From Sphingomonadales bacterium (GTDB taxonomy: Bacteria; Pseudomonadota; Alphaproteobacteria; Sphingomonadales; Sphingomonadaceae), in the NCBI GenBank assembly GCA_017309275.1, contig JAFKLT010000035.1, positions 62,001 through 126,000 on the forward strand: DNA of 64,000 nucleotides, written 5' to 3'. A program made the position numbers and the translations under genes. Below are positions 12,559-29,334 of the stretch, piece after piece. How positions within the stretch are numbered: position 1 is the stretch's first letter; each line of letters begins with the position of its first letter. Below the pieces are notes generated by a model that did no database searches, was not told the DNA's origin, and saw only the letters and a program-made list of their open reading frames with translations.

Positions 12559-13337
12559 TCCGTATTACATCAGCAACACAGCATAGGCAAATGCCTTCGC
12601 CGCGTGCGATTTAGACGCGCCGATAGCGGAAATACCAGACTTCATGTGACAAGTCAATCATGCTATTGAAATAGAATGACTTTTAACAGAATTTTGACCT
12701 CCAAAAATTGGCCAGCAATCACCCAGCAATCACCGTTTTCAGGAGCGAAAAAACCTCGTGGCCACGCGCAAATCTGCTCTTCGATCGGACCTTTCCAAGA
12801 CCAATCTTGACGACTCTCTGATGGCGAAGGTCACCGGTTCAAATCCTGTAGGTTGCCTCTCATATCCTCCCTCAGTTAACCTCTCCAAGGTCGCGACAAG
12901 TACCGTGCCGTGGGTAAGAATCTGGTGCCTCTCATCAGAAAATTGGATCAGTTCAGGCTAGCACCGCCGGACAGGATCAGACGATCTAGCGATCGCCGGT
13001 ATCGCAGCGCGCAACCCCGCTGGCGCAGCTTTGGACGGCATACTCCAATTAGATCCATTTTCGGTCGCAGTTTTGGTTGCTGATTGCGGTCGATCTGTTG
13101 GAAATAGGCGCGCGCCCGTACAGTCAACTGGGCGAGTGACCGGGTTCCGCCACGTATGTCCAGGCAATTGCTAAAGGTGGTGGTACGTGCTCCAGACGCG
13201 CGTTTCCTTTGCTCGGTCACTTTTTCGCGATGCAACGCCTAGAATAATAATTGGATTATTAAATAGTAGCGCTCTGACGCGAGGCATACTTTTCAACTGC
13301 GACTCATCTTGGTCGCAACCTTGAAAAGGAACGTGAC
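12559..13337. other. Gene-poor junction with a tRNA-like T-arm
   Basis: About 780 bases with lower GC and no convincing gene. A direct repeat CAGCAATCACC occurs twice at about 12712-12734. At about 12830-12860 the sequence GGTTCAAATCC resembles the T-loop and stem of a tRNA 3' end, with one stem mismatch; no complete cloverleaf could be folded. A hairpin, TGCGAC (13298-13303) and GTCGCA (13312-13317), lies just before the lasso precursor gene. The short open frames here lack ribosome sites and family features. It separates core genes from the lasso locus and may mark an old insertion boundary. Confidence 0.45.
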
Positions 13338-13469
13338 ATGAAAACGCATGACGACATCATCGATCTCGGCGCCGCCCAGGACGAAACCCTCGGCGCGCTG
13401 CCGTCGGGCCAGCAGGACGTACAGCCCGGGGACAAGTTTATCCTCGGCGGCATCAGCGCCGACGATTGA
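13338..13469 (+). CDS. Lasso peptide precursor
   Basis: A 43-residue peptide, preceded by AAAAGGAA eight bases before ATG 13338. The leader of 18 residues is MKTHDDIIDLGAAQDETL; it contains the DLG...T-x-G pattern of alphaproteobacterial lasso leaders, with the conserved Thr at position -2. The predicted core has 25 residues, begins GALPSGQQD and ends GGISADD. Gly1 and Asp9 are placed to form a nine-residue macrolactam ring, leaving a 16-residue tail that contains a bulky Phe16 as a possible plug. The ending resembles my recollection of the sphingopyxin and sphingonodin cores. It is followed at once by the B and C maturation genes. No second precursor was found. Confidence 0.9.
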   Translation: MKTHDDIIDLGAAQDETLGALPSGQQDVQPGDKFILGGISADD

Positions 13470-14170
13470 CTGACGCGTGGCGTGCAGTCCTCGCACTGCA
13501 CGCCACCGCTCCGTCGCGCGCTTCCATGATGAATGTCATCACTTCAGCTGCCACGCATTGGTGCAGAGTCGGCGGCACCTTCGTCTTTCTGGACTTGTCC
13601 CGCGATCGCTATTTCATGCTTGAGCAAAGTGCGGCTGATCGCTTTTCCCGGATTGTCGCCGGAGCGCAAGAGGAGGGTGACAATGATTGGCTTGCCGCAC
13701 GCGGCTTGCACCATCTGGCGCCGCCGGTCGATCAATCTAGTTCCGAAAGGATCGCTCCGACCAGCAGTGTTCTCGAGGAGCCAAATCTCGAAAGGGCTTC
13801 GGCGGTTGAGACAGCCCGTTCGGTATGGGTCCTGGCCCTAGCTCAGCGGCATGTTCGGAAACTCGCTCTAATGGAAATTCTGCCTAATCTTTTGCACGGC
13901 GTGCCAGTAGCTCCGCACGTTCAACGGTCGGATGCACGCCAGGTAGCCGCGGCGTTTAAGCGAGCGCGTCACTATTTTTCCGGCATGGATGAATGCCTCA
14001 GCCGCGGCGTTGCAATGCGCCGTGTGCTGGCCGGAAAGGGGTGCGAGGCCCGGCTGGTGATCGGCGTAACTTTGCCATTCGCCGCGCATTGCTGGGTGCA
14101 GCTGGGCTCGGCGGTATTGACCGATCCGCTCGATGTGGTGACCCCCTACACACCGATATTGGTCGCCTGA
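13466..14170 (+). CDS. Lasso peptide maturation protein B: RRE plus transglutaminase-like leader peptidase
   Basis: Removes the precursor leader so that the freed Gly1 can be cyclised. The N-terminal part (residues 30-80, CRVGGTFVFLDLSRDRYFML) is a PqqD-like RiPP recognition element that binds the leader; the C-terminal part is a papain/transglutaminase-fold peptidase. Counting from TTG 13466, the triad is Cys177 (DECLSRGVAM), His208 (PFAAHCWVQL) and Asp220 (VLTDPLD). The TTG start overlaps the precursor stop; ATG 13526 is an equally plausible start that keeps both domains. The stop overlaps the C gene start (ATGA). Confidence 0.9.
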   Translation: MTDAWRAVLALHATAPSRASMMNVITSAATHWCRVGGTFVFLDLSRDRYFMLEQSAADRFSRIVAGAQEEGDNDWLAARGLHHLAPPVDQSSSERIAPTSSVLEEPNLERASAVETARSVWVLALAQRHVRKLALMEILPNLLHGVPVAPHVQRSDARQVAAAFKRARHYFSGMDECLSRGVAMRRVLAGKGCEARLVIGVTLPFAAHCWVQLGSAVLTDPLDVVTPYTPILVA

Positions 14171-15891
14171 TGCCGGGGTACTTTCGCATCGAGATTTCCG
14201 AGGCGTCGGGACAGGCTGATCGTGACAATGGCGAAGCGGACCCACCCGCCTTATCGCTTCCAGGCGCTCGGCTCTGGTGCGATCGACAGCCGCTTGCCCT
14301 GGGTGGGCATGGATATCTGATCGGCCACCTGTTCGAGCGAGGCGAAATGAGCCGCCGCGTGTTGGATCTGCATGAAACGGCGGTAACCAGAATGGCGGCG
14401 TCTAGCGGCCGGTCGCTCGTGTCCGACTATTGGGGCGGCTATGTGTCCATCTTGGCGCGGCCCGGTGGAGGTCTCGCGATATTTCGCGACCCGTCCGGGT
14501 TGTTGCCCGTCTATTACCGCGCCGATGGGGCGGGCGTCACAGCGTCGAGCGACGCTGCCGATCTCGGCAGACGTGGCGGCGTCGATTATCCGGCAGTTGC
14601 GCGGTTTCTGGCTAATGGAGGCGCGCCTAGCCGAGAAACCTGCCTCGAAGGTGTCCAGGTACTGCTTCCAGGGGAATGTCTGATCATTACTTCGGGATCG
14701 CGTCGTCTGGAAAGCTGGTGGTCACCGTGGGATTGGACGCAGGTCCCCCACAAGCGGTTCGAGGTGGCCGCCCGTAAGCTTCGCGCCGTGGCGCTCGACT
14801 GTATCGAAAGCTGGGCGTCCTGCTTTGATTCCATATTGACCGGCGTATCTGGCGGCCTCGATTCCTCGATTGTCGCCGGCGCCGCATCTCGCCGCGCCGC
14901 CGCGCTTCATTGCCTGACGATGATCGAAGACGATGCGATTGGCGATGAGCGCCGCTATGCTTCCATTCTCGCCAAGGCGATTGGCGTTCCCTTGCTTGAA
15001 GCCCACTATGACCTCGGCAAGGTTGAGATTGATCGCGCCGTGGCGCCGCACCACCCTTGGCCGCACGCGCCATTCTACATGCAGGCAATCGCGTCGGCTC
15101 ATGAAGAGCTCCGCCGCGAGCATCAAATCGATGCCTTCTTCTCGGGCAATGGCGGGGACAATATCTTCTGTGCGATCCGCAGCGCCTCGCCGTTCGTCGA
15201 TCGTTTCATGGCGCAGGGACCGCGTCACGGGCTTTTCGACACCCTGCGCGATTTGAGCGATCTGACGGGAGCCAGCGGTGCGACCATCTTGCGGCACGCC
15301 TGGGATCGCTATCGTGACTGCAGCCGGCCCGTAAAACTTCATCGCGACACTTCCGGGCTTTCTTCCGCCGCGATCGCCGAGCTGGATGTGCCGAGGCCGC
15401 CCCATCCATGGATGGAAGCGCCCGAAGGCACGCCGCCCGGCAAGGCGGCGCATGTCAGGCTGCTGGCGCGCGCGCATCGCAGCATCGAGCTGTATCCCCG
15501 CCGCTCCCATCCGCAGCATGTCGCGCCGCTCCTGTCGCAACCAATCGTCGAAACATGCCTGTCAATCCCGACATGGCAGTGGATCGAGGGCGGCAGGGAT
15601 CGCGCCGTCGCTCGGGCGGCATTCAAATCCATCGTCCCTGTGCAATTATTGCGCCGCACGTCCAAGGGCGGGCCGGGCGGCTTCATGCAGCGCATATTCC
15701 AGGCGAACGCGGAACATGCCGGCGACCTGCTGCGCACTGGCCTGCTGGCGCGGGCCGGTCTGCTCGACCTCAGGACCTTGGAAGGAGCCTCGCAGCCGAC
15801 GGTGGCGGGCTTCGAAAAGGCGCAGCGCATCCTCGCACTTTGCGCGGCGGAAAGCTGGGTTCGTTGGTGGACGGATGTTCGCGCGTCATAA
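14170..15891 (+). CDS. Lasso peptide cyclase C (asparagine synthetase-like)
   Basis: 573 residues. It activates the side chain of Asp9 of the core with ATP and closes the macrolactam on Gly1. The N-terminal glutaminase-like domain (residues 1-190) has DYWGGYVSILARPGG and RDPSGLLPVYY but no catalytic N-terminal cysteine, as in lasso cyclases. The synthetase domain carries the PP-loop SGGLDS at 227-232 and FFSGNGGDNIF, a typical pyrophosphate-binding segment. Start ATG 14170 overlaps the B stop by four bases. It ends two bases from the stop of the convergent isopeptidase gene. Confidence 0.93.
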   Translation: MPGYFRIEISEASGQADRDNGEADPPALSLPGARLWCDRQPLALGGHGYLIGHLFERGEMSRRVLDLHETAVTRMAASSGRSLVSDYWGGYVSILARPGGGLAIFRDPSGLLPVYYRADGAGVTASSDAADLGRRGGVDYPAVARFLANGGAPSRETCLEGVQVLLPGECLIITSGSRRLESWWSPWDWTQVPHKRFEVAARKLRAVALDCIESWASCFDSILTGVSGGLDSSIVAGAASRRAAALHCLTMIEDDAIGDERRYASILAKAIGVPLLEAHYDLGKVEIDRAVAPHHPWPHAPFYMQAIASAHEELRREHQIDAFFSGNGGDNIFCAIRSASPFVDRFMAQGPRHGLFDTLRDLSDLTGASGATILRHAWDRYRDCSRPVKLHRDTSGLSSAAIAELDVPRPPHPWMEAPEGTPPGKAAHVRLLARAHRSIELYPRRSHPQHVAPLLSQPIVETCLSIPTWQWIEGGRDRAVARAAFKSIVPVQLLRRTSKGGPGGFMQRIFQANAEHAGDLLRTGLLARAGLLDLRTLEGASQPTVAGFEKAQRILALCAAESWVRWWTDVRAS

Positions 15892-15893
15892 GG

Positions 15894-18077
15894 CTATCGC
15901 CGCTCGGCGCCTCGCGTCTGCACACACCTTGTTTTCCATTGCGCCGCCATTTTCGCCCAGCGGTCGAATGCGCCTCTGTCATCCAGATCCCGGTCGCGCC
16001 GATCGCGAAGCCAGAAGTCGAACCACGCCAGATTCTCTTGCATCGCGCGCAGCCGATTGGAGGGGATGTGAAACAGATGGGTCTCATCGGTGGCGGTGGT
16101 CTCGCCAGGATAGAGACTGATCTGCGCAGGAACCTTTGCTTCGCGCAGCGCGGCGTAGAAATCGATCGCTCCCGCAAAGGGAGAAGCCATTTGCTGAAGG
16201 ACCGGAGCACACGCCCTATCGGCACGGAGCGAGGGCGACAGCTGGCGATAGGCGTCGAGGTAACGACCTGAAGGTGGGCCGCCGAAGACGGCGTGATACC
16301 CGTCTTTCGGATCTGAATAGGATGCGGGTTCAAGATAATTCCCGTCCCCGCTGGAAGCAGCGCGAAACATCTCCGATTGGGTCATCGCGACATTCACCAT
16401 CTGCGATCCCCGACTGTACCCGGCAATGCCAATGCGGTCGGGATCGACAATGCCTTCGCTTGCCAACTCGGCGATCGCGTCTTCAAAACTATAGACGCCG
16501 TTGATCCAGATCAGCTCGCGCAGCTTTTCGGGACCGAGTGTGCCTGGGCCGCCCGACCATATCATATAGGCGTGCCAAAGCTCAGCCTGCTGCCGAGCCG
16601 AGGGGTCGTTCATGAGAATGACGACATATCCGCGCTCGGCGAACAGCTGAGCGGGGTAGTTCCATTGCAGATCGACGTTCGCGAAGCGCTCGTCCGCATC
16701 GCTGCCATGAGTGATGATGATCGCCGGGTAGCGACTGCTTGTCTGGTAATTGCGAGGCCAGACGATGAATCCGGTCGATCGGTAGCCGAGCCGGTTTGTC
16801 CATTGATGCGGCGTGACGCGCAACGGTGCGATCGAATCATGAGCAGCGGAGAGCGGAGCGATGGCCTGCACGCGCCCGTCTTTCGGTTCGACACGGACGA
16901 ACCGTGGCGCCTGGTTCAGCCCTTCCTCGACGCAAATGCCCCACGCGAGATCCTCGCGAAAGTCGCAGGCCGTCAAGCTGCCGGGGCGGATCAGCGACGT
17001 TGCGTGCCGACCGGTAAGCAAAACCAACCCGTACCGTGGATGCGAGGTCGTTCGCACCCCCAGCAGCGCGCTTAGCCCATCCCCCGAGAGCCAATTTCCT
17101 GCCGAACGCGGGTCGCCGATGTAATAGGGCTGGCGACCATAGTGAGTTTTTCGGCCATCGGTGTGCGTCTCCGTGAGGGCAAGCGTCCTGCCGAAACCCT
17201 CGCTTGCAAGAGTTCCGCCATTCGGGCCGCGCACCAGACCGATCGCCGGAAAACCCGAACTTTCCTGAATGGGCCGGCTGGCGTTGGTGACAAAGCTCCA
17301 GGAAAAGGTCCCGATGCCGTCGGCCCGCTCCGCATCGGATTGCTCTAACTGGTAGCGCGGCCCTTCGTCGGTCCATTCGACATGGCCGCCATAATAGAAA
17401 GCAAGCCGGTCGCCCGATGGCCGCGATGCGACCAGCCAGTCTTCGCCCGTCGCCGACCGTATGCGCAGTTCTACGATCGCCCGGACCGGCGCGCGACGCC
17501 GATTGCGCTGGCTAACCACCGCGTCGTCGATGGCAACATTGGCCGGTTCCGAACTTGGCTTTAGCGTGGCGTACCAAAGCCATTGTCCGTCGGGAGACCA
17601 GTCGTGATATAAAATCCCGATCCGGCGCGGCGCACCGCTTCGCACGGCGAACAGCGCGCCTTCGGTCTGGCCGACGGTAACCTTCGCATCGCGCACCAGC
17701 AGCGGTTTGATCGTCCCTTCGGCGTCGAGCGCATAGAGCTGAAGCTCGTCGCCCCGATCTAGCAGTAGGCTCCAGCCCGTGCCGTTCGGCAACGGTCGGA
17801 GCTGCTCTGCGCTCGCCGCGCGCAGAATCTCGCGCGAGGCGCGCGAGCGCAGGTCAAACAGATGAAGAATTGAGACGGTCTCATTCTTTTGGAGATCCGC
17901 TCGCCGTTCGAGATAGGCGAGCGACTTGCCGTCGCTCGCCAAGCTCAATTCGAACTCCGCCGGGACGGTCACCACATCTTCGAGCGTCCAGCGCCGACCT
18001 TCCTCCGCGACGGCCGTCCCGCTGTTAGCGAGACCGACCAACAGAAGAAGCGGCCATAGGCGGATGCTACCAGTCAT
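15894..18077 (-). CDS. Lasso peptide isopeptidase (prolyl-oligopeptidase family)
   Basis: Serine peptidase of 727 residues that in related clusters linearises the threaded lasso peptide by cutting its isopeptide bond. A signal peptide (WPLLLLVGLANSGTAVAEE) predicts periplasmic location. The middle is a beta-propeller-like region (residues 30-430), followed by the alpha/beta-hydrolase domain. The nucleophile is Ser555 in GIAGYSRGSQ; the histidine is at 667 or 670 in ETHLFHIPSNR. The start overlaps the 3' end of the TonB receptor gene by 11 bases, so the two are co-expressed. This is the AtxE type known from the astexin locus. Confidence 0.9.
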   Translation of the reverse strand: MTGSIRLWPLLLLVGLANSGTAVAEEGRRWTLEDVVTVPAEFELSLASDGKSLAYLERRADLQKNETVSILHLFDLRSRASREILRAASAEQLRPLPNGTGWSLLLDRGDELQLYALDAEGTIKPLLVRDAKVTVGQTEGALFAVRSGAPRRIGILYHDWSPDGQWLWYATLKPSSEPANVAIDDAVVSQRNRRRAPVRAIVELRIRSATGEDWLVASRPSGDRLAFYYGGHVEWTDEGPRYQLEQSDAERADGIGTFSWSFVTNASRPIQESSGFPAIGLVRGPNGGTLASEGFGRTLALTETHTDGRKTHYGRQPYYIGDPRSAGNWLSGDGLSALLGVRTTSHPRYGLVLLTGRHATSLIRPGSLTACDFREDLAWGICVEEGLNQAPRFVRVEPKDGRVQAIAPLSAAHDSIAPLRVTPHQWTNRLGYRSTGFIVWPRNYQTSSRYPAIIITHGSDADERFANVDLQWNYPAQLFAERGYVVILMNDPSARQQAELWHAYMIWSGGPGTLGPEKLRELIWINGVYSFEDAIAELASEGIVDPDRIGIAGYSRGSQMVNVAMTQSEMFRAASSGDGNYLEPASYSDPKDGYHAVFGGPPSGRYLDAYRQLSPSLRADRACAPVLQQMASPFAGAIDFYAALREAKVPAQISLYPGETTATDETHLFHIPSNRLRAMQENLAWFDFWLRDRRDRDLDDRGAFDRWAKMAAQWKTRCVQTRGAERR

Positions 18078-20604
18078 GCCGAACCGTGACGCTCAGGAAG
18101 CGGCCAATTGCTGACCCGTTCGTCGTGTCAAACGGAGCATCGAAAGGCGAGGTGGTGAAGATCGGCTCCGGCTTGCTGTTGAAGACATTCTGTGCGCTCA
18201 GCGCAACTTCCGTGCCTGCGCCGAGCCGCAATCGGCCGGTCAGGTCAAGCGTTGTCGATCCGCTAAGTTTGATGGCTGCCGGACGACGATTGTCCGTGAC
18301 GCTCGCGCTGTGATTGAGAAAGGCCGCGAGCGAGAAGGCCTTGTCGCTCAGCGTGAGCCCGCCGCGCGCCCGAAAATGCGGCGGGCGGAAGATTGTTCCC
18401 GCGAGGTCGGTCACCGGCAGGCCGGGAAGCAATTGCTGACTGCTGTCGAGCCAGGTGGCTCCGGCGTTCAGGCTCAGCTGCCGGTCGCTGCCAAGCTGGG
18501 CATCATATCGTACCGCGATGTCGACGCCGCGATATTTCTGCCGCGCGATATTGCGGTCGCGAGCATCGAGGAAGGCGACGACGCGCGCCGGGTCGTAGGG
18601 AGACCCCGTAATGTTCTGGAGCCCGCCATCGGCACCGGCGAAGATGGTGTCGAGCAGGGCCGGCGCAGGATTTAAGGTAACGAGATCAGCAAAGATCGGA
18701 TTGTTCAGAACCCCGGCGCCCGAGGCGAGCGGCGGCGCAACGCGATCCTTATAGTCGATCCGAAAATAGCTTGCCGAAACCTCAAGACCATGGAGCGGTT
18801 TCACGGTCGCGCTGAAGGTCCAGTTTTCGGAGCGTTCAGGCTCGAGCTGGTCGTTCGGCCCGAGAGCATAAGCGACGGTCGAACCAGCGGGAAATCCCTG
18901 GCCGAAGCCGCCGACCGGCACGAGCAGCGCAACATAGCCGGAATATTGTTGATAGAGCGTCGGAAGTTTGAAGGATTTGCCCCATGACACCCCCAGCCGG
19001 ACCTGCTCGACCGGATCATAGACGAAGCTCAGCTTCGGGGTGACGATGTCGCCGGAGTCCGAATAATCCTCATAGCGCAGCGCCCCGGTCAGCGAAGCGC
19101 GGTGCGCAAAGGCCAGATCCTGATCGGGGTCCGCGATCGGCAGTAAAAGCTCGCCATAGGCGAAATGATTGCGGCGCGAGCGTGAAAAGCTGCGGGTTCC
19201 GATTTCGGATTTGAAACGGTTGGTGCGATAGCCGCCGCCAAAGGCCAGTCGCGCGGGGCCCGCGGGGAGCTCGAACAGCGACCCCTCCAGTCCCGCCTCC
19301 ACCGCGATATTCCGGTTGAAGAAGTGCCGCGCGGTGGCAGTGCTCGGCGCGCCGCCGCTGAAGTTCTGGCTGATGCCATCGGTCGTGTCGGTGCCGAAAA
19401 ACGCGCCCGCTTTCAGCTTCCAATTGGCCGACAGTGCGGCCGACAGCGTCGGTGCGACGCCAAATGTTTCGAACTTGGTGCGCGCCTCAAGCCCTGAGTT
19501 TCGGAGCGGCTGAGCGACCGTGAAACCGGTCGCCGACTCCATCCTTCCGCGCTTGTAAATAAGATCGGCAGCCAGGGTGACGCCGCCGCCAAGCGACTGG
19601 TGACCGCTCAGCAGAACCGCGTGTCGGCGAAGGGCAGGGAAGAGCGTCGAATCGGGGTTGTTGGCGAAGGCATAGCTGCGATCTTTCGCCCGGATCGCGG
19701 TACCGTGCGAATAATCATAGGCCGCGATGATGCCGCCGTCCGACCAGCGCGATCCGCCGAGAAGATTATATTGGTGCTGGAAATTGCCGCCGTCGGTCGA
19801 AAGGCCGAGCCGGGCGCTGGTCGATACGCCCTTATAGTCGCGCTTGAGAAGAATATTGACGACCCCGGCGACCGCGTCGGCGCCGTAGATGGCCGATGCC
19901 CCATCGGCCACGACCTCAACGCGGTCGACCGCCGCGATGGGAATGGCGCTGACGTCGATCACCGAATTGACGCTGCTGTAGGCAAAGCGATTGCCGTTGA
20001 TCAGCGTCAGTGTCGCATTGGGACCGATACCGCGCAGGTTGAAAGTCGATGCGCCATTGGCGTTCACGTTTTCATTCGCGGCGCCTTGCGAATTTCCGAT
20101 CCCGGGATTCTGGCCGCCGCCGAAATTCTGCGGCAAGCTGCGCGCCACCTCGCCAAGATCGGCATGGCCGGAGTTGCGGATGTCTTCCGAGGTCACCCGG
20201 ATCACAGGGGTTGCCGTGGGCGCGCCCGTGATCCGTGACCCCGTCACGACAATCGGCTCGGCCTCGGTCGCGGCGGCATTTTCGGCGGAGGCGAGTCTGG
20301 AAATGACCACCGAGCCGACCTCGAACCTTGCGGTGAGCCCGCTACCTTTGAGGAGCGCCTCGATTGCTTCGCGGCTCGTCAGCTCGCCTTTCAACGGCGG
20401 CGCAGTCTTTCCATCAAGATCGCGCGACGATGCGTAGAGCTCGATGTCGGCAATCGTGGCAGCGCTGCGCAGCGCGTCGTCGAGATCCTGCGCGGGCATA
20501 TCGTAGGGCTGGCGCTGTTGCTGCATGGCCAGCGCAACCGTAGGTGAAAAACAGGTGGCACTGCCGACCAGCAGCGCGACCAGCGAACGGGACTTCTTCA
20601 ACAT
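18067..20604 (-). CDS. TonB-dependent receptor with STN signalling domain
   Basis: Outer-membrane transporter of 845 residues. Signal peptide VALLVGSATCFSPTVALA; then an STN domain (YDMPAQDLDDALRSAATIADIELYASS ... LLKGSGLTARFEVG in order), which contacts FecR-type regulators; a TonB box-like EPIVVTGSRI; a plug with NLRGIGPNATLTLINGNRF and VVADGASAIYGADAVAGVVNI; and a 22-strand barrel ending in an aromatic residue (VTVRHDW). ATG 20604 was preferred to GTG 20610 because GGGGGAG is five bases upstream. It probably imports the lasso peptide or its cognate ligand for cleavage by the isopeptidase. Confidence 0.92.
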   Translation of the reverse strand: MLKKSRSLVALLVGSATCFSPTVALAMQQQRQPYDMPAQDLDDALRSAATIADIELYASSRDLDGKTAPPLKGELTSREAIEALLKGSGLTARFEVGSVVISRLASAENAAATEAEPIVVTGSRITGAPTATPVIRVTSEDIRNSGHADLGEVARSLPQNFGGGQNPGIGNSQGAANENVNANGASTFNLRGIGPNATLTLINGNRFAYSSVNSVIDVSAIPIAAVDRVEVVADGASAIYGADAVAGVVNILLKRDYKGVSTSARLGLSTDGGNFQHQYNLLGGSRWSDGGIIAAYDYSHGTAIRAKDRSYAFANNPDSTLFPALRRHAVLLSGHQSLGGGVTLAADLIYKRGRMESATGFTVAQPLRNSGLEARTKFETFGVAPTLSAALSANWKLKAGAFFGTDTTDGISQNFSGGAPSTATARHFFNRNIAVEAGLEGSLFELPAGPARLAFGGGYRTNRFKSEIGTRSFSRSRRNHFAYGELLLPIADPDQDLAFAHRASLTGALRYEDYSDSGDIVTPKLSFVYDPVEQVRLGVSWGKSFKLPTLYQQYSGYVALLVPVGGFGQGFPAGSTVAYALGPNDQLEPERSENWTFSATVKPLHGLEVSASYFRIDYKDRVAPPLASGAGVLNNPIFADLVTLNPAPALLDTIFAGADGGLQNITGSPYDPARVVAFLDARDRNIARQKYRGVDIAVRYDAQLGSDRQLSLNAGATWLDSSQQLLPGLPVTDLAGTIFRPPHFRARGGLTLSDKAFSLAAFLNHSASVTDNRRPAAIKLSGSTTLDLTGRLRLGAGTEVALSAQNVFNSKPEPIFTTSPFDAPFDTTNGSAIGRFLSVTVRHDW

Positions 20605-20701
20605 TATCACTCCCCCATTTCCTCGGCCGTGCTTCAGGCAGGCGGCCAGTGGGGGTGCGTTGACGGGGCGAAGGGGAGCCCCTTAGTCTTGGGTGAAAAA
20701 A

Positions 20702-21691
20702 TTATCGGCGGCGAAGATGGATGGCTCTCGCCGTGCGTTCGACCCTGAGACCGAACAGGGTTGCGATCCGTTCAGCGAAAGCATCGGTCTCGCTAAGATG
20801 GAAGCGGCCGGAAACCTCAAGCGCGGCGCTCGCCGCATCGTCGATCACGATCGGGATGACGGCATAGCGATTGGCCTCGGCAACCAGTCGGTCGAGCCTT
20901 ATCGAACGATATTCGGCCCAGCCTTCGGGCCAATTTGCGGGAATGTCCGATGCTTGGGCCATGCCGAGCTGCAACTTGCCATCACGTCGGTAGGTCAGCG
21001 TCTTTCCCTGTGACAGCTCCGTCGCAGAGCCGGTTTTCGCGCCTGCGCGCAGGTCGGCTTCGCCCCGCCGGAGGACCGCGCTGACCGTTCCGGTCTCGTC
21101 GAGGCTCAGATCGATCTCGGCATTGTTCGCGATTGTCGTGCCTCGCCCCGCGTCAATATGAAGCGGGATATCCTGCCTGGCGATGGTCAGACGGACCCGG
21201 CCCCTTATCAGGCGGACGCTGCGGTCGCCGGCTGCGAACGCGACGTCCAGCCGGCTGTCGGTATCGAGCGTCGCGCTCGAGCCGTCGGCAAGCCGGAACG
21301 TGCGGATTTCGCCGCGCTGCGTGATCAGGGGTTCGGCGGCGCGCGCGATCGAGGCGCTGCCGGGCTGGCCGGGAAGGGAGGCGCCTCCAGCCCCGATTGC
21401 TACAATCAGGAGTGCAATTGCCGTCGCGGCGGCGCCCCATGGCAGCCAGCCGCGTACCCGGCCCCGCCGCGCTTCGGCATGGCTCGTTCCGTGGCGCTGC
21501 GATGTTTTGAGAACCGCCAAGGCCGCCATCCGGTGTTCGGCGCGGCGGTAGGCTTCGCCATGATCGGCCGATGCGAGGAGCCACGCTTCAAATTCTCCGC
21601 GGAGCGCGTCGGCGTCCTCGCCGCGCATCTTGATCAGCCAAGCCTGAGCTACTTCATCGACGGGATAGTCGCCGCCGTTTGTGCTGGTCAT
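20702..21691 (-). CDS. FecR-family anti-sigma/signal transducer
   Basis: 329 residues. The N-terminal cytoplasmic domain (DUF4880: AQAWLIKMRGEDADALRGEFEAWL with HGEAYRRAEHRM) binds the sigma factor; one membrane segment (AAATAIALLIVAIGAGGASL, residues 86-105) follows; the periplasmic FecR domain (TQRGEIRTFRLADGSSATLDTDSRL in order) and C-terminal DUF4974 domain receive the signal from the STN domain of the receptor. It overlaps the sigma factor gene by four bases and lies 98 bases before the receptor gene. Confidence 0.92.
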   Translation of the reverse strand: MTSTNGGDYPVDEVAQAWLIKMRGEDADALRGEFEAWLLASADHGEAYRRAEHRMAALAVLKTSQRHGTSHAEARRGRVRGWLPWGAAATAIALLIVAIGAGGASLPGQPGSASIARAAEPLITQRGEIRTFRLADGSSATLDTDSRLDVAFAAGDRSVRLIRGRVRLTIARQDIPLHIDAGRGTTIANNAEIDLSLDETGTVSAVLRRGEADLRAGAKTGSATELSQGKTLTYRRDGKLQLGMAQASDIPANWPEGWAEYRSIRLDRLVAEANRYAVIPIVIDDAASAALEVSGRFHLSETDAFAERIATLFGLRVERTARAIHLRRR

Positions 21692-22317
21692 CGGCCGCTG
21701 TCCACCACCTTAGAAATCTGACTGAGCGCCTTCATCATATGATATTCCACCGTCGCGATGCTGATGCCAAGCAATTCATGTATCTCGCGATAACTGAGTT
21801 CGTCCACCCGATGCATCAGGAAAACGCGGCGCGTTTTTGGCGGCATGGCGTCAACCGCCGTTTCATACAATCGCAGCAGGTCCGCGGCTTCGAGATTCCA
21901 CTCCTGCGCCGCAGGCGTCGCGCCGTCGCGCTCCTCGCGAAGCGGAAAGAAGGTCGCCCGCGCGGACTTCTGGCGCCGCGCTCGATCAATGAGGAGATTT
22001 TGGGCGATGCGGCGAAGGAACCCGCCCGGATTGACGAGCTGGTGACGCTGCGTGCTGCCCGCCGCGCGCGCGAAGACTTCCTGCACCAGATCCGGTGCTT
22101 CCTCCGATCCCGCTTTGCGGCTCAGGAAATGGAAGAGCGACGTGCGATGCGTCCGATATATCGCGTCCAGATCGTGCCCGGCTTCAGGCCGCTCCTCGAC
22201 CGGCGGCGGACGATCGGCCGGATGCGAATGGCAGGCCGATGACACCGAAAAGGGGTGACGCGGCGGGGCGCGGTCGCCGCAGGTACAGGGAGACACGACA
22301 AATATTCCCGGAGGCAC
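21688..22317 (-). CDS. FecI-like ECF sigma factor
   Basis: 209 residues if GTG 22317 is the start; the first 45 residues are not family-like and the real start may be an inner GTG. Sigma-2 covers DLDAIYRTHRTSLFHFLSRKAG and DLVQEVFARAAG; sigma-4 covers MPPKTRRVFLMHRVDELSYREIHELLGISIATVEYHM with its helix-turn-helix. With FecR and the STN receptor it forms the usual cell-surface signalling cascade, here placed to respond to the lasso peptide. Start codon uncertain; family certain. Confidence 0.9.
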   Translation of the reverse strand: MPPGIFVVSPCTCGDRAPPRHPFSVSSACHSHPADRPPPVEERPEAGHDLDAIYRTHRTSLFHFLSRKAGSEEAPDLVQEVFARAAGSTQRHQLVNPGGFLRRIAQNLLIDRARRQKSARATFFPLREERDGATPAAQEWNLEAADLLRLYETAVDAMPPKTRRVFLMHRVDELSYREIHELLGISIATVEYHMMKALSQISKVVDSGR

Positions 22318-22453
22318 GAGTGGGACCAGCCGGCTTCCGCCAGAGACCCGTCTCCCAGTGCTGTGCCGCCGTTTGGTCGCTCGCGCGATCCATGGACCGG
22401 TTGGGCCGCCGGTCCGGTCAGGGACTGGCGCATATGATGCCTGGCGAAATATT

Positions 22454-22487
22454 CCGCGCAGGAGCTGCCAGCGATGCTCCTGCGCGG
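22454..22487. terminator. Perfect 12-bp inverted repeat after the gntR gene
   Basis: CCGCGCAGGAGC (22454-22465) and GCTCCTGCGCGG (22476-22487) pair perfectly around a 10-base loop. It lies in the 233 bases between the gntR stop and the sigma factor start. It could end the luxI operon transcript, although no T-run follows on either strand; it may also be an operator for the sigma factor gene. Confidence 0.45.
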
Positions 22488-22550
22488 TCGAATCATGTCA
22501 ATTCTGGATGGCTCTGACAAGCTAAAGTGTCACCCCGTCGCTACGGATGC

Positions 22551-23162
22551 TCAGGGCTGGCGGCCTGGATGCCCGCCAAGCGCCCGGGCGTAGTTCGCCG
22601 CTTCATGCGCGCGCCTCTCGTGATAGCGGAGCATGAGGTTGCGGACTTGCGCCTGTGGCTCGACATCGGCGACCGCAGTCGCGATCGCTTCGAGCTCCGC
22701 CTCCACATCGGCGAGGATCGTCGCGTCGAATTGCCGCGATAGCTGAAGCCGGTCGCCAATTGCGGCGATGCCCGCGACAATCTCGCTGTTCGACGAGCGT
22801 TCGGCGATCGCCAGGAACAGATCGGCAACGCGATCGGGATAGGGCTGGTCAGCGGGGACCGACGTCGCCGATCCTTTTGGCGCCGTCGCGAGCGCAGCGA
22901 GCAACAGGATCAGATGCAGCTCGAGCAGATCGCGAAACTCGGTCTCGGTCAGCCGATGGACGTGAAAGCCCTCGCCTGGGGTAAAATCGACCATCCGCTC
23001 GCCATTGAGCCGGTAAAGGCTATCGCGCACCGGGGTCACACTGACCCCGAGATCGTCGGCGAGACGGGCCGCCTCGATCCGGGTGCCGCTCGCCCATTCC
23101 CCGGCCATCAGCCGACGCTTGATCGCCTCATAAGTCGGCTCGAACACATGCGCCGGACTCAT
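22551..23162 (-). CDS. GntR-family transcriptional regulator
   Basis: 203 residues. The winged helix-turn-helix is at residues 8-70 (YEAIKRRLMAGEWASGTRIEAARLADDLGVSVTPVRDSLYRL), with the GntR wing GERMVDFTPGEGFHV. The C-terminal part is helical and resembles a short FCD-type ligand domain without an obvious full metal site. It starts inside the stop of the dioxygenase gene (ATGA), making it the last gene of luxI-phyH-gntR. A regulator encoded in an AHL synthase operon could sense the product of the neighbouring dioxygenase. Confidence 0.82.
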   Translation of the reverse strand: MSPAHVFEPTYEAIKRRLMAGEWASGTRIEAARLADDLGVSVTPVRDSLYRLNGERMVDFTPGEGFHVHRLTETEFRDLLELHLILLLAALATAPKGSATSVPADQPYPDRVADLFLAIAERSSNSEIVAGIAAIGDRLQLSRQFDATILADVEAELEAIATAVADVEPQAQVRNLMLRYHERRAHEAANYARALGGHPGRQP

Positions 23163-24037
23163 TGGCCGTTCCTTTCGGCAGCGGCGAATTCGGCGACGGC
23201 ATCGGCTTGGTCGGGAAGCAATTCGTCGATTGCGCCGATATGATCTGGCCGGTCATCTTTCAGCAGTACCGAGGGGCATTGGCCTTCATAGTTGCCGAGA
23301 TTGGGGCGGTGCTGCGCATAACCGGCGAGCGCGGCGAGTTCAGGCGGAAACGTCTTGGCGATCTCGGGCGGGTAAGCGAGCCACAAATTCTCATAGGGCT
23401 TCAGCCATCCCAGGCTATAGCTGACGAGCACACCGCGCCGGACTTCTTGGCTGAGGTTCGAGCCCGCCCCGTGCGCAGTCGATCCCAGAAAGCAGATCGC
23501 TGCGCCCGGCTTGCCTTCGGCGAAAATGGGCGGGCCAAGATCAGATTTCGCCATCCCCTTCACGCCGTGGCTCTTCGGAAAGATGCGCGTTGCGCCGTTT
23601 TCTTTTGTGAAGGGTGTCAGCGGCCAGAGGACGTTGACGAGATATTCCTGGGTGCCGTCGGCGCCGCGCCACATATCCTGGTCGCGGTGCGGGAACTGCC
23701 GCACTTCGCCCGGATGGATTTCGATCGCCTGTGTGAGGTTGAGCTGGATCCGGTCGCAGCCGGTGCCGAGAATGGTCTCCACGGCAGAAAGGATGAGCGG
23801 GTTGAGTACCAGTGCGGCCATGTGCTCCGATCGCTTGAGCAGGCCGCCGAAGCGCTTTGTGCGGCGGCCGTAGAAATTGCCTTCACAAAAGGGCGTCGCG
23901 GCGAAGATGGGGTCGAGATCCCTTGCGAGCGCATGGACACGCGCGACCGCCTCGTTGCGAATTATGCAATAGCCTTTGCGGCGCAGCTCCTCGAAGAGCA
24001 GGCCAGGCAGATCGGCTTCGGTCAGATCCTTTTTCAT
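23159..24037 (-). CDS. Phytanoyl-CoA dioxygenase (PhyH) family protein
   Basis: Predicted Fe(II)/2-oxoglutarate dioxygenase of 292 residues, starting MKKDLTEADLPGLLFEELRR. The metal triad is visible as HRDQDMW (His and Asp in HxD) and a distal His in GSTAHGAGSN; the 2-oxoglutarate-binding Arg is probably in EVRRGVLVSYSLGW. PhyH enzymes hydroxylate acyl chains or small metabolites. The start ATG 24037 overlaps the luxI stop by four bases and the stop overlaps the gntR start, so it is translated together with the AHL synthase. A role in modifying an acyl signal is possible but not shown. Confidence 0.85.
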   Translation of the reverse strand: MKKDLTEADLPGLLFEELRRKGYCIIRNEAVARVHALARDLDPIFAATPFCEGNFYGRRTKRFGGLLKRSEHMAALVLNPLILSAVETILGTGCDRIQLNLTQAIEIHPGEVRQFPHRDQDMWRGADGTQEYLVNVLWPLTPFTKENGATRIFPKSHGVKGMAKSDLGPPIFAEGKPGAAICFLGSTAHGAGSNLSQEVRRGVLVSYSLGWLKPYENLWLAYPPEIAKTFPPELAALAGYAQHRPNLGNYEGQCPSVLLKDDRPDHIGAIDELLPDQADAVAEFAAAERNGQ

Positions 24038-24660
24038 CGCCCCGCCTCCCCGCCTTCTTCGAACTTGAGGACAAGCGGCGCATAGGTGCCGGTGCGCTGC
24101 AATCCGGGGAGCGTATCCTCGTCGATCGCTATGCTGAGGGCGACTATCCGGCACGCGCTATCCCGGTGAACGGGACCCAGCGTGCGGCATGTCCAGCCAA
24201 ATTTGCTGATCGTGTGATACCAACCGGCTTCTGCGACACCGACATATTCGCCTATGCCGTGGCGGAGAGCATAGTCCGCCAGCGCGGTGACCAACTGGTT
24301 GCGCGCGTCGCGGCGCTCGGTGGGCGTTTGTCCGGGGTCGAGGCAGAAGCGACTGATCTCCCACACGCCTTCACCGGACGGCGCCCCGTCGGCGCAAAGA
24401 TGCGAATAGATGTCGCCGAGCAGGTGCGGCGCCGTGGTTGGCAGCAGCCGCGCCGACGCCCGGTGGCGCAGATCATCGGGATCGAGCAGGATCAGGTACC
24501 GCGCGTCCGGGGTGTCGAATTGGTCGAGCTCGAAGCGGCCGTCGAGGGCAGGCAAATCCCATTGCAGCTTGTCGATGAAGACCTGCTTGCGGGCGGCGAA
24601 CATGGCGCGAAGCGCCGCATTCCCGGGCGCATCCTGCGCCCGCGTGGATTGAGTGATCAT
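24034..24660 (-). CDS. luxI: Acyl-homoserine-lactone synthase, LuxI family
   Basis: 208 residues; makes an N-acyl-homoserine lactone from SAM and an acyl-ACP. Family residues are present: RKQVFIDKLQWDL near the N-terminus, the acidic pair in FELDQFDTPDARYLI, and Arg in RASARLLPT, with WEISRFCLDP and LGPVHRD further on. ATG 24660 is preceded by AAGGAACC. It lies 99 bases after luxR on the same strand with a palindrome between them. The acyl chain length cannot be told from sequence. Confidence 0.9.
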   Translation of the reverse strand: MITQSTRAQDAPGNAALRAMFAARKQVFIDKLQWDLPALDGRFELDQFDTPDARYLILLDPDDLRHRASARLLPTTAPHLLGDIYSHLCADGAPSGEGVWEISRFCLDPGQTPTERRDARNQLVTALADYALRHGIGEYVGVAEAGWYHTISKFGWTCRTLGPVHRDSACRIVALSIAIDEDTLPGLQRTGTYAPLVLKFEEGGEAGR

Positions 24661-24717
24661 GATGGTTCCTTGGCTTGTCGGTGCCAGGATCAGACCATCA
24701 TTCCCACCGCGCGGCTA

Positions 24718-24733
24718 TGCCCAGAAATGGGCA
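24718..24733. promoter_or_regulatory. Candidate lux box upstream of luxI
   Basis: Perfect 6-bp inverted repeat TGCCCA-GAAA-TGGGCA, 16 bases, about 58 bases before the luxI start in the luxR-luxI gap. Its position and symmetry suit a LuxR-family binding site and imply positive feedback on luxI-phyH-gntR. The sequence differs from the classical Vibrio box. Confidence 0.55.
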
Positions 24734-24759
24734 ATCCCGGGACGATTTATGTGCGAGCG

Positions 24760-25515
24760 TCAGAGCGGGCGCCACCAGTCATAGACATCCGAAAAGCCGA
24801 TGACGCCGTCGAACAGGGCGCAGAGGATCAGCATTTGCCGACAAGGCACTGAATAGCGCTCGCGCGCGATCTTGAGATGACGGACCACGGTCTCTTCGCT
24901 GATGCCGAGGATGCTGGCGGTCTCGCCAGCAGTCTTGCCGCGGGCGGACCAGAGCACGCATTCGCGCTGCCGCTCGGTCAGCGCCGCCCGCGGAGTATAG
25001 GAGCCTGTCCCGATGAGCTGCCGCGCCGCGGCGAGCGCCACGGCGCCGACGATCTCGGCGGCGTGGAGCATCTCGAGCGGGATCCTGGCATTGGGAGCGA
25101 CGGCAAAGGAGCAGCTTCCGGTCGCTTCGCCAGGCAAGTGCCGCGGCACCGTGAAGCCGTCGCCGATTCCGCTCTCGCGGGCGACCTTCAGCAACTGCCG
25201 GTCACCGCGAGAAAGCGGGATGTAGTGATCGACATTGCGCCATTGAAAACCCGTCATGGATTTTTCGCCGGCGCGCCGGATCGGGTCGGTGCCGCTGAGA
25301 TCGAAGCCGACATAGACATTCGCCCAGGCGTCGGGATAATTATGCACGAGCATCGATGCACCCTCGCCGCCGCCGCCGCGGCGATCGAAGGCGAGCGCGA
25401 AAAGATCAAATCCCATGCGGTCGGCGGCGTTCGACAGGGCGGCAAAGAGCCGTTCTTCCTTGTCGGCGCCTGATATGTCGTGTGCGAGTTCCTCCGTCAG
25501 ATTAAAATGCTTCAC
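24760..25515 (-). CDS. luxR: LuxR-family quorum-sensing regulator
   Basis: 251 residues from a GTG start. The N-terminal autoinducer-binding domain contains NYPDAWANVYVGFDLSGTDPI (the W, Y and D residues that line AHL pockets), then FQWRNVDHYIPLSRGD. The C-terminal GerE-type helix-turn-helix begins LTERQRECVLWSARGKTAGETASILGISEETVVRHL. The pocket residues argue for a true AHL receptor, with the luxI product as the likely ligand. It is the first gene of the four-gene unit. Confidence 0.92.
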   Translation of the reverse strand: MKHFNLTEELAHDISGADKEERLFAALSNAADRMGFDLFALAFDRRGGGGEGASMLVHNYPDAWANVYVGFDLSGTDPIRRAGEKSMTGFQWRNVDHYIPLSRGDRQLLKVARESGIGDGFTVPRHLPGEATGSCSFAVAPNARIPLEMLHAAEIVGAVALAAARQLIGTGSYTPRAALTERQRECVLWSARGKTAGETASILGISEETVVRHLKIARERYSVPCRQMLILCALFDGVIGFSDVYDWWRPL

Positions 25516-25793
25516 GTCGATTCATCGGCCGCCGACGCGTTCCCGACCCGTCCGCCCGCGATCCGCTCCATGGCTCATCGCTCCCGTTTCCTCTCCGGGA
25601 GACAATGAAGTTGGACAAGCTGCGCGATGGTCCTCGCACTGCGGCGGGCGGGTGATACCTCAGCCTCTATACGCAATGCCGATCGCCTCTTCGGTGTAAC
25701 GACAGGAAATCACCTGATAAAGCGGCTTGGTGCACCAATCGGACCCAGATTGACACCTAATGCCTTAATACGCCGACCGCGGCGGAGCCGGCG

Positions 25794-26699
25794 TCACGCA
25801 CCGGCGGCATCTGGAGTCGAAGTGGCGATCGAAACGTCATGGGCAAGCAGTCGTTCGCAGCTCGGCGCGACAAGGCCCCAGACCGCGTCGATCACGGCGG
25901 AGAATGTCACGCCTTCAAGCTCAAGGCTCGCGGCATAGGCATCCCATTGCCGCCGCTTGTCGCCGTCTTCGAACATGGCAGCCGAGAGCCCCGGCGGACG
26001 GTCAGCCGGGATCGGCGTGCCGCGTCGATCGAATGTCGCCGCAAGTGCTGCGTCGAGCGCTTGAGCATTGATGTCGCAGGCCTGCGGAATCGCCCAGAGG
26101 TCGTAGAAATCCTTCATGCGACCATTGGCGATCCCGAGCGCTACCATCGCCTGAAATTTCTCTGCGATGACGCTTGTCGGCGAATAGGTGCGGATCTCCG
26201 GATCGGGAAAGTCCAGCAGCGTCGCGAAGGAAGTCGGCGGCGCCGGATCCGAGAGGGCGTCGCCAAAGCCGAGGTCGATCGTGATCGGGATGCGCGTTCG
26301 TTCGAGAAAGGCGGTCGTTGTTAGCCGCATGCCGCCATATTCGGCTCCCTCGCGGATCGGCCGCGCGGTGAGTGCGTCGATATCGAAAGTCAGCCCGTCA
26401 GCCGCCTCGATTTTCATGATCGCGCCGAAATCCGCTATCAGCCGTTCGGCGCTTGCATCGCCGAAGGCGAGAAAGTCGGCGTCGCGGGTGACTCGATTAT
26501 CGTCTTCGAGCCAGAGCGTGACGAGAAGACCGCCTTTGAGAATGAACTGGTCCCGTAGCGGCGAGAGCGACAGTCGGTAAAGCAGGCGCTCGAGCGCGAA
26601 GCGAACGAGCAGAACGTCGAAGGGCTGACGCTCCTTGCGCGCCAATTGGAGCAGCCGGTCCTTGACCGAGGCTGCCAGATTGACGGGTGCCTTAGCCAT
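25794..26699 (-). CDS. AbiEii/AbiGii-family nucleotidyltransferase toxin
   Basis: 301 residues from ATG 26699. The DNA polymerase beta-like nucleotidyltransferase motifs are in FILKGGLLVTLW and RVTRDADFLAFG (the metal aspartates), with the AbiEii segments IPITIDLGFGD and VIAEKFQAMVALGIANGRMKDFYDLWAI (E-K and K-D-x-x-D). In type IV toxin-antitoxin pairs this enzyme blocks growth, for some homologues by modifying tRNA 3' ends. It overlaps the antitoxin gene by eight bases. This and the antitoxin are separate from the second AbiEii pair near 51 kb. Confidence 0.92.
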   Translation of the reverse strand: MAKAPVNLAASVKDRLLQLARKERQPFDVLLVRFALERLLYRLSLSPLRDQFILKGGLLVTLWLEDDNRVTRDADFLAFGDASAERLIADFGAIMKIEAADGLTFDIDALTARPIREGAEYGGMRLTTTAFLERTRIPITIDLGFGDALSDPAPPTSFATLLDFPDPEIRTYSPTSVIAEKFQAMVALGIANGRMKDFYDLWAIPQACDINAQALDAALAATFDRRGTPIPADRPPGLSAAMFEDGDKRRQWDAYAASLELEGVTFSAVIDAVWGLVAPSCERLLAHDVSIATSTPDAAGA

Positions 26700-27309
26700 T
26701 GAAGCTGAGCGCCTCGAGATAGGGCTGCATTCGCTTCCAGACCCCGCCCGCTGCCGCGGCCTCGGCGATGTCACCGGGACTCGTCTTGCGCTGGTCGAGC
26801 GCTGCGCGCAGACTCTCGACCGCAACCGAGCGATCGACGAGGCGCGGATTACGGAACAGGTCGGCCAGCGTTTTGGGAACCGAATAGATGGGAACATCGA
26901 CCCCGGCGACCTTGTGATGCTCGATCCCCTGGCGTCGATATTTGTCGGCGAGGCGGACGATCCGGACAGGCGGATAATCGATGACCGGTGCCCAGTCGCT
27001 GGGTCCTATTGCTACCCAGACCCGCCGCGGCATCTGGTCGGTGAGCCCGTGGAAAGCGAGCGCCGATACCATGGCGATAACCCCGTTCGGGATGCGCTTG
27101 GTGATTTCGGCGAGGCCTTGGTCGGTGTCGATCGGCGCGCCGTGAAGCTGATAGAGTCCTCGCGCGATACGGTCGATGTCGCCACTGTCGACCGCGCGAG
27201 CGATGGTTTCGGGTGCCACGCCTGCGGCGCGTAGCTCGCGCGCGCGCAGGATCGGATGCGCGCCAAAGAGCGCTCGAAGCGTCTCGCCTTGCGTTATCGA
27301 TGTGTGCAT
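26692..27309 (-). CDS. AbiEi-family antitoxin and autorepressor
   Basis: 205 residues. The N-terminal winged helix (ARELRAAGVAPETIARAVDSGDIDRIARGLYQL) is the AbiEi DNA-binding domain; the C-terminal domain (ALAFHGLTDQMPRRVWVAIG, SVPKTLADLFR) is of the AbiEi type. It neutralises the toxin gene that follows with an eight-base overlap. The ATG (27307-27309) lies inside one arm of a long inverted repeat, consistent with autorepression. Confidence 0.9.
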   Translation of the reverse strand: MHTSITQGETLRALFGAHPILRARELRAAGVAPETIARAVDSGDIDRIARGLYQLHGAPIDTDQGLAEITKRIPNGVIAMVSALAFHGLTDQMPRRVWVAIGPSDWAPVIDYPPVRIVRLADKYRRQGIEHHKVAGVDVPIYSVPKTLADLFRNPRLVDRSVAVESLRAALDQRKTSPGDIAEAAAAGGVWKRMQPYLEALSFNG

Positions 27310-27359
27310 GTGACAAAACCTCTAACTTAAATGCGATGTATCATAGGTTTTGTCACATG
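27307..27359. promoter_or_regulatory. Inverted-repeat operator of the AbiE pair
   Basis: Arms CATGTGACAAAACCT (27307-27321) and AGGTTTTGTCACATG (27345-27359) are a perfect 15-bp inverted repeat with a 23-base AT-rich spacer that probably holds the promoter. The proximal arm includes the abiEi start codon. AbiEi proteins are known to bind paired inverted repeats cooperatively and repress their own operon. Confidence 0.8.
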
Positions 27360-27438
27360 TCATGCAATGATTATGGCGTTCGGAGATGGCCCCGATTCCA
27401 CTATTTCCTACATTCACCGGTCATGGCATGCCGGTCAG

Positions 27439-27564
27439 ATGGATCAGGAACCGAAATGGAAATCGCGCGCGCTGGCGATCGAATTCTGGTTCGCCGCTGT
27501 TCTCGTCGGCGGCTCCTTCATTGCCGGCCTCATCGGCGCGATCCGGTCGCTATTCGGCGGGTGA
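27439..27564 (+). CDS. Possible small single-pass membrane protein
   Basis: A 41-residue frame starting MDQEPKWKSRALAIEFWF with one membrane segment (AAVLVGGSFIAGLIGAI) and a short tail. It is divergent from abiEi and convergent with the SRAP gene. A start further upstream at 27331 would add non-family-like residues. The ribosome binding site is weak (GGTCAG), so this is a guess based on the amphipathic layout. Confidence 0.35.
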   Translation: MDQEPKWKSRALAIEFWFAAVLVGGSFIAGLIGAIRSLFGG

Positions 27565-27586
27565 CGTCGCCCCGCTATCCAGCTTC

Positions 27587-28234
27587 TCAAAGGAGCGTCG
27601 GGGCATACGCGCTCGGGGGCTTGCGGCTGAACCACGGGACGTCGGTCCGCTCAACCTCCAACCGGCTTGCCGGATATTGGGTAACGAGCTTCATTGCCTC
27701 CTCAGCCGAAGCTTGCAGCCAGGCGTCATGATCGGCGGCGTGAAGAATGACCGGCATCCGGTCGTGAATGTCGAACAGCTCCTCGGTCGCATCGACCATC
27801 ACCATCGTATAGCAATCGCCCCACTCGTTGGTCGGACGCCAGAGCCCGGCGCAGGCGGCGAGCGGCTGGTCGACGACGCTTAGCCAGGTTCGCGTCATCT
27901 TGCCCTTCTCGCCTTCGGCTTCGGCGAAGGCCGTGATCGGGATCAGACAGCGCTGGGCGGGATTGGTAAACCATGTTCGCCAGAAGGTCATCAGCTTGTC
28001 GTCGCGGGCATTGTTGACGGGCTTGGGCTTGCTCGTCGGTTTCATATGCTTGAGCCGCACCGGGAAGCCCCAGGTCATCGACTGGAGCGCGCGCGTGCCC
28101 GCGTCGTCACGGACCACAAATCCTTGTCCGCCGGGATAGACTTCGCCGGGTTGCGCATTGGTGAGCGGACGCCGCGCACCGAACGCCGAGGCCACTTCGG
28201 CGACCGAAGCCTTGAGGGTCACGAGATTGCACAT
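27587..28234 (-). CDS. yedK: SOS response-associated peptidase (SRAP), YedK/HMCES family
   Basis: 215 residues. The catalytic Cys2 (MCNLVTLK) forms a thiazolidine crosslink with abasic sites in single-stranded DNA. Other active-site parts are present: NNARDDKL, RCLIPITAFAEAEGEKGK (catalytic Glu) and IHDRMPVIL (His). It shields abasic sites at stalled forks. It is the last gene of a four-gene run that begins with a LexA box at 29320, which fits its name and role. Confidence 0.93.
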   Translation of the reverse strand: MCNLVTLKASVAEVASAFGARRPLTNAQPGEVYPGGQGFVVRDDAGTRALQSMTWGFPVRLKHMKPTSKPKPVNNARDDKLMTFWRTWFTNPAQRCLIPITAFAEAEGEKGKMTRTWLSVVDQPLAACAGLWRPTNEWGDCYTMVMVDATEELFDIHDRMPVILHAADHDAWLQASAEEAMKLVTQYPASRLEVERTDVPWFSRKPPSAYAPTLL

Positions 28235-28262
28235 GGCGGCGAGTCCCCTTGGGTGGTTTCGG

Positions 28263-28775: not shown

Positions 28776-28786
28776 GAACTCAGTCC

Positions 28787-29116: not shown

Positions 29117-29117
29117 G

Positions 29118-29309: not shown

Positions 29310-29319
29310 GCCCTAATGA

Positions 29320-29334
29320 GAACATAGAGAGAAC
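29320..29334 (-). promoter_or_regulatory. LexA (SOS) box
   Basis: On the minus strand the sequence reads GTTC TCTCTAT GTTC, an exact match to the direct-repeat LexA operator of alphaproteobacteria (GTTC-N7-GTTC). It lies immediately before the DUF6771 start and the run of genes ending in SRAP. LexA bound here would block transcription until DNA damage. Confidence 0.82.

Follow-up and report, generated by a model that had tools for sequence, protein, structure and literature searches.

In the clusters of isopeptidase-type lasso peptides, genes for a GntR regulator, a TonB transporter and a sigma/anti-sigma pair are nearly constant and a GntR-like gene precedes the precursor, according to the consulted part of PMC9266682, where the role of these peptides is called enigmatic. 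The consulted parts of that paper and of related literature offered no description of the signal that switches these peptides on. The structure paper for the isopeptidase entries 5jrk and 5jrl is cited in the consulted parts of PMC12670498 and PMC9266682. In Sphingomonas BPH, the source of Sphingocin, disruption of B has been linked with loss of phenanthrene use (PMC11006600, in the part consulted).

Here we describe a relative of these clusters in the window, i.e. the whole 64,000-nucleotide stretch analysed. It very probably encodes the production of a class II lasso peptide of the isopeptidase type and is horizontally mobile, with the precursor gene A under a dedicated promoter and the whole cluster located at the end of a mobile element. 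The isopeptidase/receptor half, the control region and the mobile element go beyond the preliminary description, which dealt with A, B and C; to a specialist who knew only that description, the recent mobility and the lasso-specific control region would come as a surprise. The features are as follows.

12617..57027, no strand: window part of a putative mobile element, common to Sphingopyxis genomes with far more diverged flanks
13243..13266, + strand: AT-rich element, candidate operator/upstream promoter part (repeat/dyad and 13-mer, association with lasso genes)
13283..13289, + strand: GGCATAC block, possible -10 region (consensus ggcaTA.C)
13298..13317, + strand: 5' hairpin TGCGAC-loop-GTCGCA before the ribosome-binding site (covariation)
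13338..13469, + strand: lasso precursor A, leader 1-18, predicted core 19-43 (PF24178, identical copies, conservation)
13477..13506, + strand: 12-bp hairpin directly 3' of A (folding, covariation)
13526..14170, + strand: B, leader-binding domain and cysteine protease (PF13471 and NF033537, both above cut-off)
14170..15891, + strand: C, Asn-synthetase-like macrolactam cyclase (PF00733 above cut-off)
15894..18077, - strand: lasso isopeptidase (related to 5jrk/5jrl and AtxE2)
18067..20610, - strand: TonB-dependent receptor (profile match)
20702..21691, - strand: FecR-like anti-sigma regulator (profile match)
21688..22317, - strand: ECF sigma factor (profile match)
22551..23162, - strand: GntR-type regulator, candidate binder of the AT-rich element (syntenic annotation; 79% identical homologue in the C74 locus)
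56950-57903: CagX, conjugation-type, further on in the window
57900-59132: TrbI, conjugation-type, further on in the window

The precursor and its accompanying genes

The open reading frame at 13338-13469 (+) encodes 43 amino acids (MKTHDDIIDLGAAQDETLGALPSGQQDVQPGDKFILGGISADD) and is preceded by the Shine-Dalgarno sequence AAAAGGAA at 13324-13331, with six bases between its end and the ATG. The predicted core is GALPSGQQDVQPGDKFILGGISADD. Thr at -2 and Gly1 are both found and Cys is absent, as in class II, and Asp9 is the sole acidic residue among core positions 7-9, i.e. the Thr -2/Gly1/Asp9 arrangement put forward in the preliminary description is present in the translated frame. The leader would be cut after Leu18 and the core would carry a Gly1-Asp9 macrolactam ring, which gives a computed monoisotopic mass of 2466.203 Da for the predicted mature peptide after loss of water. 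Taken alone, the residue pattern is weak evidence for a lasso precursor, and its loose form T-x-G-(6-7)-[D/E] is fitted by two of the 314 ATG starts in the window that give 35-60 amino acids. A stands above chance because it matches a family model (Pfam PF24178, Subterisin, 32.6 bits with a cut-off of 27), adjoins B and C, has identical copies in other genomes (seven of 80 Sphingopyxis genomes, i.e. six besides its own) and is conserved with respect to genome G293; at the level of sequence, the proposed lasso precursor is confirmed. The NCBIfam benenodin model NF033522 remained below its cut-off (28.5 versus 33 bits), and a search with A against solved structures gave one match only, at E 0.13, which was treated as chance. 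The kind of lasso peptide is already known and the core of A is a new member of it; neither its ring sequence nor the three tail sequences occurred in the open-access literature text.

A protein search with the precursor gave 39 rows with E <= 0.01, distributed among 31 of the 80 Sphingopyxis genomes. Next to the identical copies come one genome at 95% and one at 88%. The copy in G293 is 88% identical (dN 0.068, dS 0.424), with three core positions changed, and is kept better than B (68%), C (76%) and the isopeptidase (73%); dN is well below dS for A, B and C alike. Three lasso loci were found in the host genome, on its contigs C32 (the cluster described here), C74 and C44; they give four precursor matches, of which one is under the cut-off. 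We take the core of one C74 precursor to be sphingopyxin I. The remark that the gene is so short that gene callers could miss it stood in part: the precursor of plasmid pMC4, 88% identical to A and the same as that of G293, is called, but it is named "hypothetical protein". A natural Thr-to-Ile change at position -2 was seen in the metagenome-assembled genome G450 (locus L061).

That B and C genes follow A was borne out by the family models listed above; the two reading frames share one base. Cys157 and His188 of B are invariant in all 24 aligned B proteins. A structure predicted for B (mean pLDDT 91) found nothing at E <= 0.001 with Foldseek, the leader-binding domain of TbiB1 giving a weak match (probability about 0.8, E about 0.6), and no relative of the B and C sequences was found among solved structures. 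For the isopeptidase, the best solved relative is 5jrk/5jrl (711 residues aligned, E 2.3e-186), with a far weaker match to AtxE2 (E 1.3e-19). We take 5jrk/5jrl to be the sphingopyxin I isopeptidase, and this relationship, together with the C74 core, upholds the likeness to sphingopyxin that had been noted earlier. Neither the isopeptidase nor C reaches the cut-off of the lasso models named in NCBIfam; NF033523 gave 178.7 bits with a cut-off of 400. Regarding gene content, an isopeptidase, a TonB receptor and a FecR/sigma pair are present and no ABC transporter was found within 13338-22317, as in clusters of the isopeptidase type. Past the ECF sigma factor there are genes for the GntR regulator, a phytanoyl-CoA-type dioxygenase, a LuxI synthase and LuxR, with names taken from the syntenic annotated genes of pMC4.

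The proposed control region of the precursor gene

The AT-rich element contains the repeat/dyad ATAAT-TGG-ATTAT at 13247-13259 and, at 13254-13266, the 13-mer GATTATTAAATAG, which lies about 71 nt 5' of the start codon of A. The comparison of upstream stretches took in pMC4 and 44 precursor genes belonging to the family; these genes had been gathered with a pattern demanding Thr at -2, so that the constancy of this residue is no evidence, and five ORFs fitting the pattern were removed by eye as spurious. When the 44 genes were joined by four signature hits, the consensus gAt.ATaaTc.GATTATaAAATgGa was present in 26 of the 48 rows, in the order AT-rich element, ggcaTA.C about 17 nt further on, hairpin and Shine-Dalgarno sequence. 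In the remaining 22 the AT-rich element is absent, altered or replaced; several rows show a block centred on TATAAAGTTCGGATA.

In the host genome, the exact 13-mer GATTATWAAATRG is found at two sites, 5' of A and 5' of the C74 precursor. In the 80 genomes it has 38 matches, spread across 30 of them, as opposed to one match for the control pattern read backwards. Inspection of every match placed 36 in front of a lasso precursor, the other two being L155 (start of an apparent ribosomal protein gene) and L158. Most of the 36 loci are those from which the motif was derived or copies of them, and counted from the first in-frame ATG they comprise 21 distinct precursor sequences. In 32 of the loci the start codon lies 69-75 nt away; in the other four the script took an earlier in-frame ATG at 55 nt, the usual start at 70 nt being also there. 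The 39 rows of the protein search include 27 of these loci and lack nine: G324, which was in the motif set, and eight new ones (L133, L136, L140, L145, L148, L150, L156, L157); three of the new ones, L136, L140 and L150, are identical to the G324 gene or nearly so. Restricted to matches without prior knowledge, eight out of ten are lasso genes. The exact 13-mer is missing from 12 of the 39 rows, and scans for sigma-70 promoters and terminators were at about chance level. No description of a lasso promoter signature was found in the titles and opening lines of abstracts of the open-access literature.

We infer that the AT-rich element is a dedicated promoter/operator of A, perhaps bound by the cluster-linked GntR protein. 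The 13-mer could instead be a remnant of common descent that was kept by chance, as close relationships are common among the 36 loci, which together provide just the 21 precursor sequences; this is unlikely, given that the 13-mer is retained although chromosomal DNA in the genus is about 80-89% identical, that its spacing is regular in 32 loci with a second start option in the other four, and that the stretch between it and the start codon is variable in sequence. As to the protein that reads a promoter/operator of this kind, binding by the GntR protein (22551-23162) is possible, if somewhat doubtful. In the C74 locus, a GntR homologue 79% identical to it and the exact 13-mer occur together; ten more of 53 loci have a GntR homologue at 27-37% and none of the ten has the exact 13-mer, as would be expected if operator and regulator change together. 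The link is weak, since loci with 1.5-kb flanks cannot reveal a distant GntR gene. The cluster's own ECF sigma factor might read the element in place of GntR, which we consider rather doubtful: two blocks about 17 nt apart have a promoter-like layout and FecR/ECF genes are part of such clusters (PMC9266682, consulted part), but the repeat/dyad would suit a dimeric regulator and GntR genes were found with several lasso loci.

Two hairpins frame A. The one directly 3' of it (13477-13506) has a folding z of -2.97, and among 34 of the 44 genes 97.6% of the cells pair, eight of the 11 pairs show substitutions in both partners and none of 500 shuffles reaches any of five measures. Left out of this count were L007, L008, L018, L020, L024, L025, L034, L035, L038 and the second L064 gene, due to poor alignment or extra precursors, with L008 lacking a comparable hairpin. 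For the 6-bp stem of the 5' hairpin, 93.9% of the cells pair and the covariation score is 0.42 versus 0.21 in shuffles, in 30 of the 44 rows that were picked partly for showing it and are thereby biased towards structure; two of the five measures are not above the shuffles (54/500 and 216/500). Rfam returned a single sub-threshold match (E 0.11). We take the hairpin that was removed in the case of astexin-1 to be the one between A and B. Since this removal is tabulated as an expression strategy in the consulted part of PMC7549694, a hairpin in such clusters was already known. Masking of the Shine-Dalgarno sequence was considered as well, as single foldings had suggested an outer stem over this region, and found no support: in 44 rows, accessibility was not different from that after shuffling, 22 of them being below the mean of the controls (p 0.38).

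The probable mobile element carrying the cluster

Up to position 10501 the window is 79-88% identical to genomes G462, G410 (Sphingopyxis italica DSM 25229) and G421 (strain LC363). From about 12617 on, identity to G462, G444, G410, G421, G455 and G427 (strain H053) is 95.6-100%, with the exception of the last piece of G462 (89.8%), and more distant copies are found in G293 (75-81%) and G450 (89%). The lasso cluster begins 0.7 kb inside this shared block, i.e. at one end. The block comprises 154.9 kb in G455 and 166.2 kb in G462, broken by deletions; it is about 97.6% identical or more (main piece 97.6%), as compared with 80-89% outside the block on the left side and 78-84% in the chromosome past its far end. 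Between 12650 and 20610 there are no differences from G410, G421 and G462 and one from G427. Because this 8-kb stretch is without differences while the flanks differ by 11-22%, the trait has evidently moved recently, as has the element itself, between Sphingopyxis species.

The chromosomal neighbours of the block are separated by 170 kb in G462 and by 182 kb in G455, but by 7-11 kb in G419, G403, G407, G443, G465, G426, G402 and G365 (chosen examples and not a count; elsewhere they are further apart or on different contigs). A tyrosine integrase (440-aa open frame, PF00589 at 42.3 bits) is encoded about 4 kb from the far end, within the shared block of G455, G462 and G410. With a high-identity block between diverged flanks that are close together elsewhere, the block is probably an integrative conjugative element. 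There were no convincing end repeats, the right end being not placed to the base, no 9-base repeat for the element end in the window and no tRNA gene as insertion site in the window or in 13 further loci; a ParB domain on the element scored under its cut-off. The transfer genes identified in the window are CagX and TrbI only, at or past the departure from G455/G462. No description of a lasso cluster on such a conjugative-type element was found in open-access titles and opening lines of abstracts.

Several further observations were made on the element. Past 57027 the window departs from G455/G462 at CagX/TrbI, so that 57027-59132 may stem from a different lineage. Both in the C74 locus of the host (L102:10903-12186, PF00589) and on pMC4 (L124:9277-10572), lasso A has an integrase gene at a distance of 0.7-0.8 kb that points away from it; the ends of elements may be a recurrent location of lasso clusters. 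A gene with a Multiubiquitin domain, a gene without Pfam match and a ThiF/E1-like gene follow one another at 45890-48487 and look like a ubiquitin-like conjugation set, and two AbiE-type pairs are located at 25797-27309 (AbiEii + AbiEi) and 50551-52316 (AbiEii + DUF6088). From 20879 to about 23800 the window has a divergent allele that spans FecR, sigma, GntR and part of the dioxygenase gene and is 85.6-92.1% identical per 700-base bin to G421, G427 and G462. On its 3' side the DNA is identical to these genomes again. By its identity profile, this allele is a recombination patch.

The block could also be viewed as conserved chromosome or an assembly artefact, its near-identity being due to selection or contamination: the window shares homologous left-flank genes with G462, G410 and G421, end repeats were not found, and the carriers G444 and G450 are metagenome-assembled genomes. 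We regard this as very unlikely in the face of about 97.6% identity versus 78-89% in the flanks, the absence of differences at 12650-20610 in three genomes, the closeness of the flanks in genomes without the block, the single 3.67-Mb contig that holds the block in G462 and the related module on a conjugative plasmid. Decay of the cluster, with no peptide produced, is suggested by two deletions, 18058-24114 in G455 and 16558-23677 in the metagenome-assembled genome G444, by which receptor and regulators are lost and the isopeptidase gene is cut, A, B and C being retained; it is most improbable for the window, where all seven cluster genes are open and where, in the comparison with G293, dN stays well below dS for A, B and C. 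The two deletions differ and have 1-2 bases in common at their junctions.

Proposed working and comparison with known systems

For a recently mobile cluster with its own control region, the data computed here (the gene families and their order, their conservation, the pattern of mobility and the link between the 13-mer and lasso genes) can be read as follows, the conjectural steps being the chemistry, the role of the promoter, binding by GntR, peptide uptake and the signalling. Transcription of A would start from a promoter of its own, recognisable by the AT-rich element at 13243-13266, which would act as operator and upstream promoter part, with GGCATAC as the -10 block. Its mRNA would begin at or just before the 5' hairpin, the two hairpins framing a short message, and the 3' hairpin probably stabilises this message, keeping A above B and C. 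B would bind the leader and cut after Leu18, and C would couple the Gly1 amine with the Asp9 side chain. The TonB receptor may then re-import the peptide, the isopeptidase may open it, and FecR and the ECF sigma factor may respond to its uptake. It is a tentative generalization, for us nearly an even call, that sphingomonad lasso clusters share a control module, consisting of an AT-rich operator-promoter at an almost constant distance and two hairpins on either side of the precursor ORF, which moves together with the cluster on mobile elements and is governed by a cluster-linked GntR protein. If true, the lasso genes of one genome would form a private regulon that can be found from DNA alone. 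The 13-mer, with 36 of 38 matches at lasso genes, provides a promoter to test, a suggested regulator and precursors beyond the list from the protein search.

Among known systems, the benenodin/astexin-type isopeptidase clusters have the same gene set, whereas their GntR gene is 5' of the precursor (PMC9266682, consulted part) and here it is beyond the sigma gene. A hairpin is likewise present in the astexin-1 cluster (PMC7549694, consulted part), and here the conservation and covariation of the post-A hairpin have been measured; the 5' hairpin and the 13-mer were not met in the consulted parts of PMC7549694 or of other literature on such clusters. Sphingocin of Sphingomonas BPH shares the A-B-C set, the divergent isopeptidase and the TonB receptor, and differs in its core (PMC11006600, consulted part). 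On pMC4, a conjugative plasmid of Sphingopyxis indica, the region from A to ParB is syntenic with 76-78% identical DNA, but the module is plasmid-borne and an annotated integrase lies directly 5' of A. The sphingopyxin I cluster agrees in leader type, 9-residue ring, GGI-x-ADD ending, isopeptidase class and receptor, and differs in the sequence of ring and loop, its precursor being 47% identical to A.
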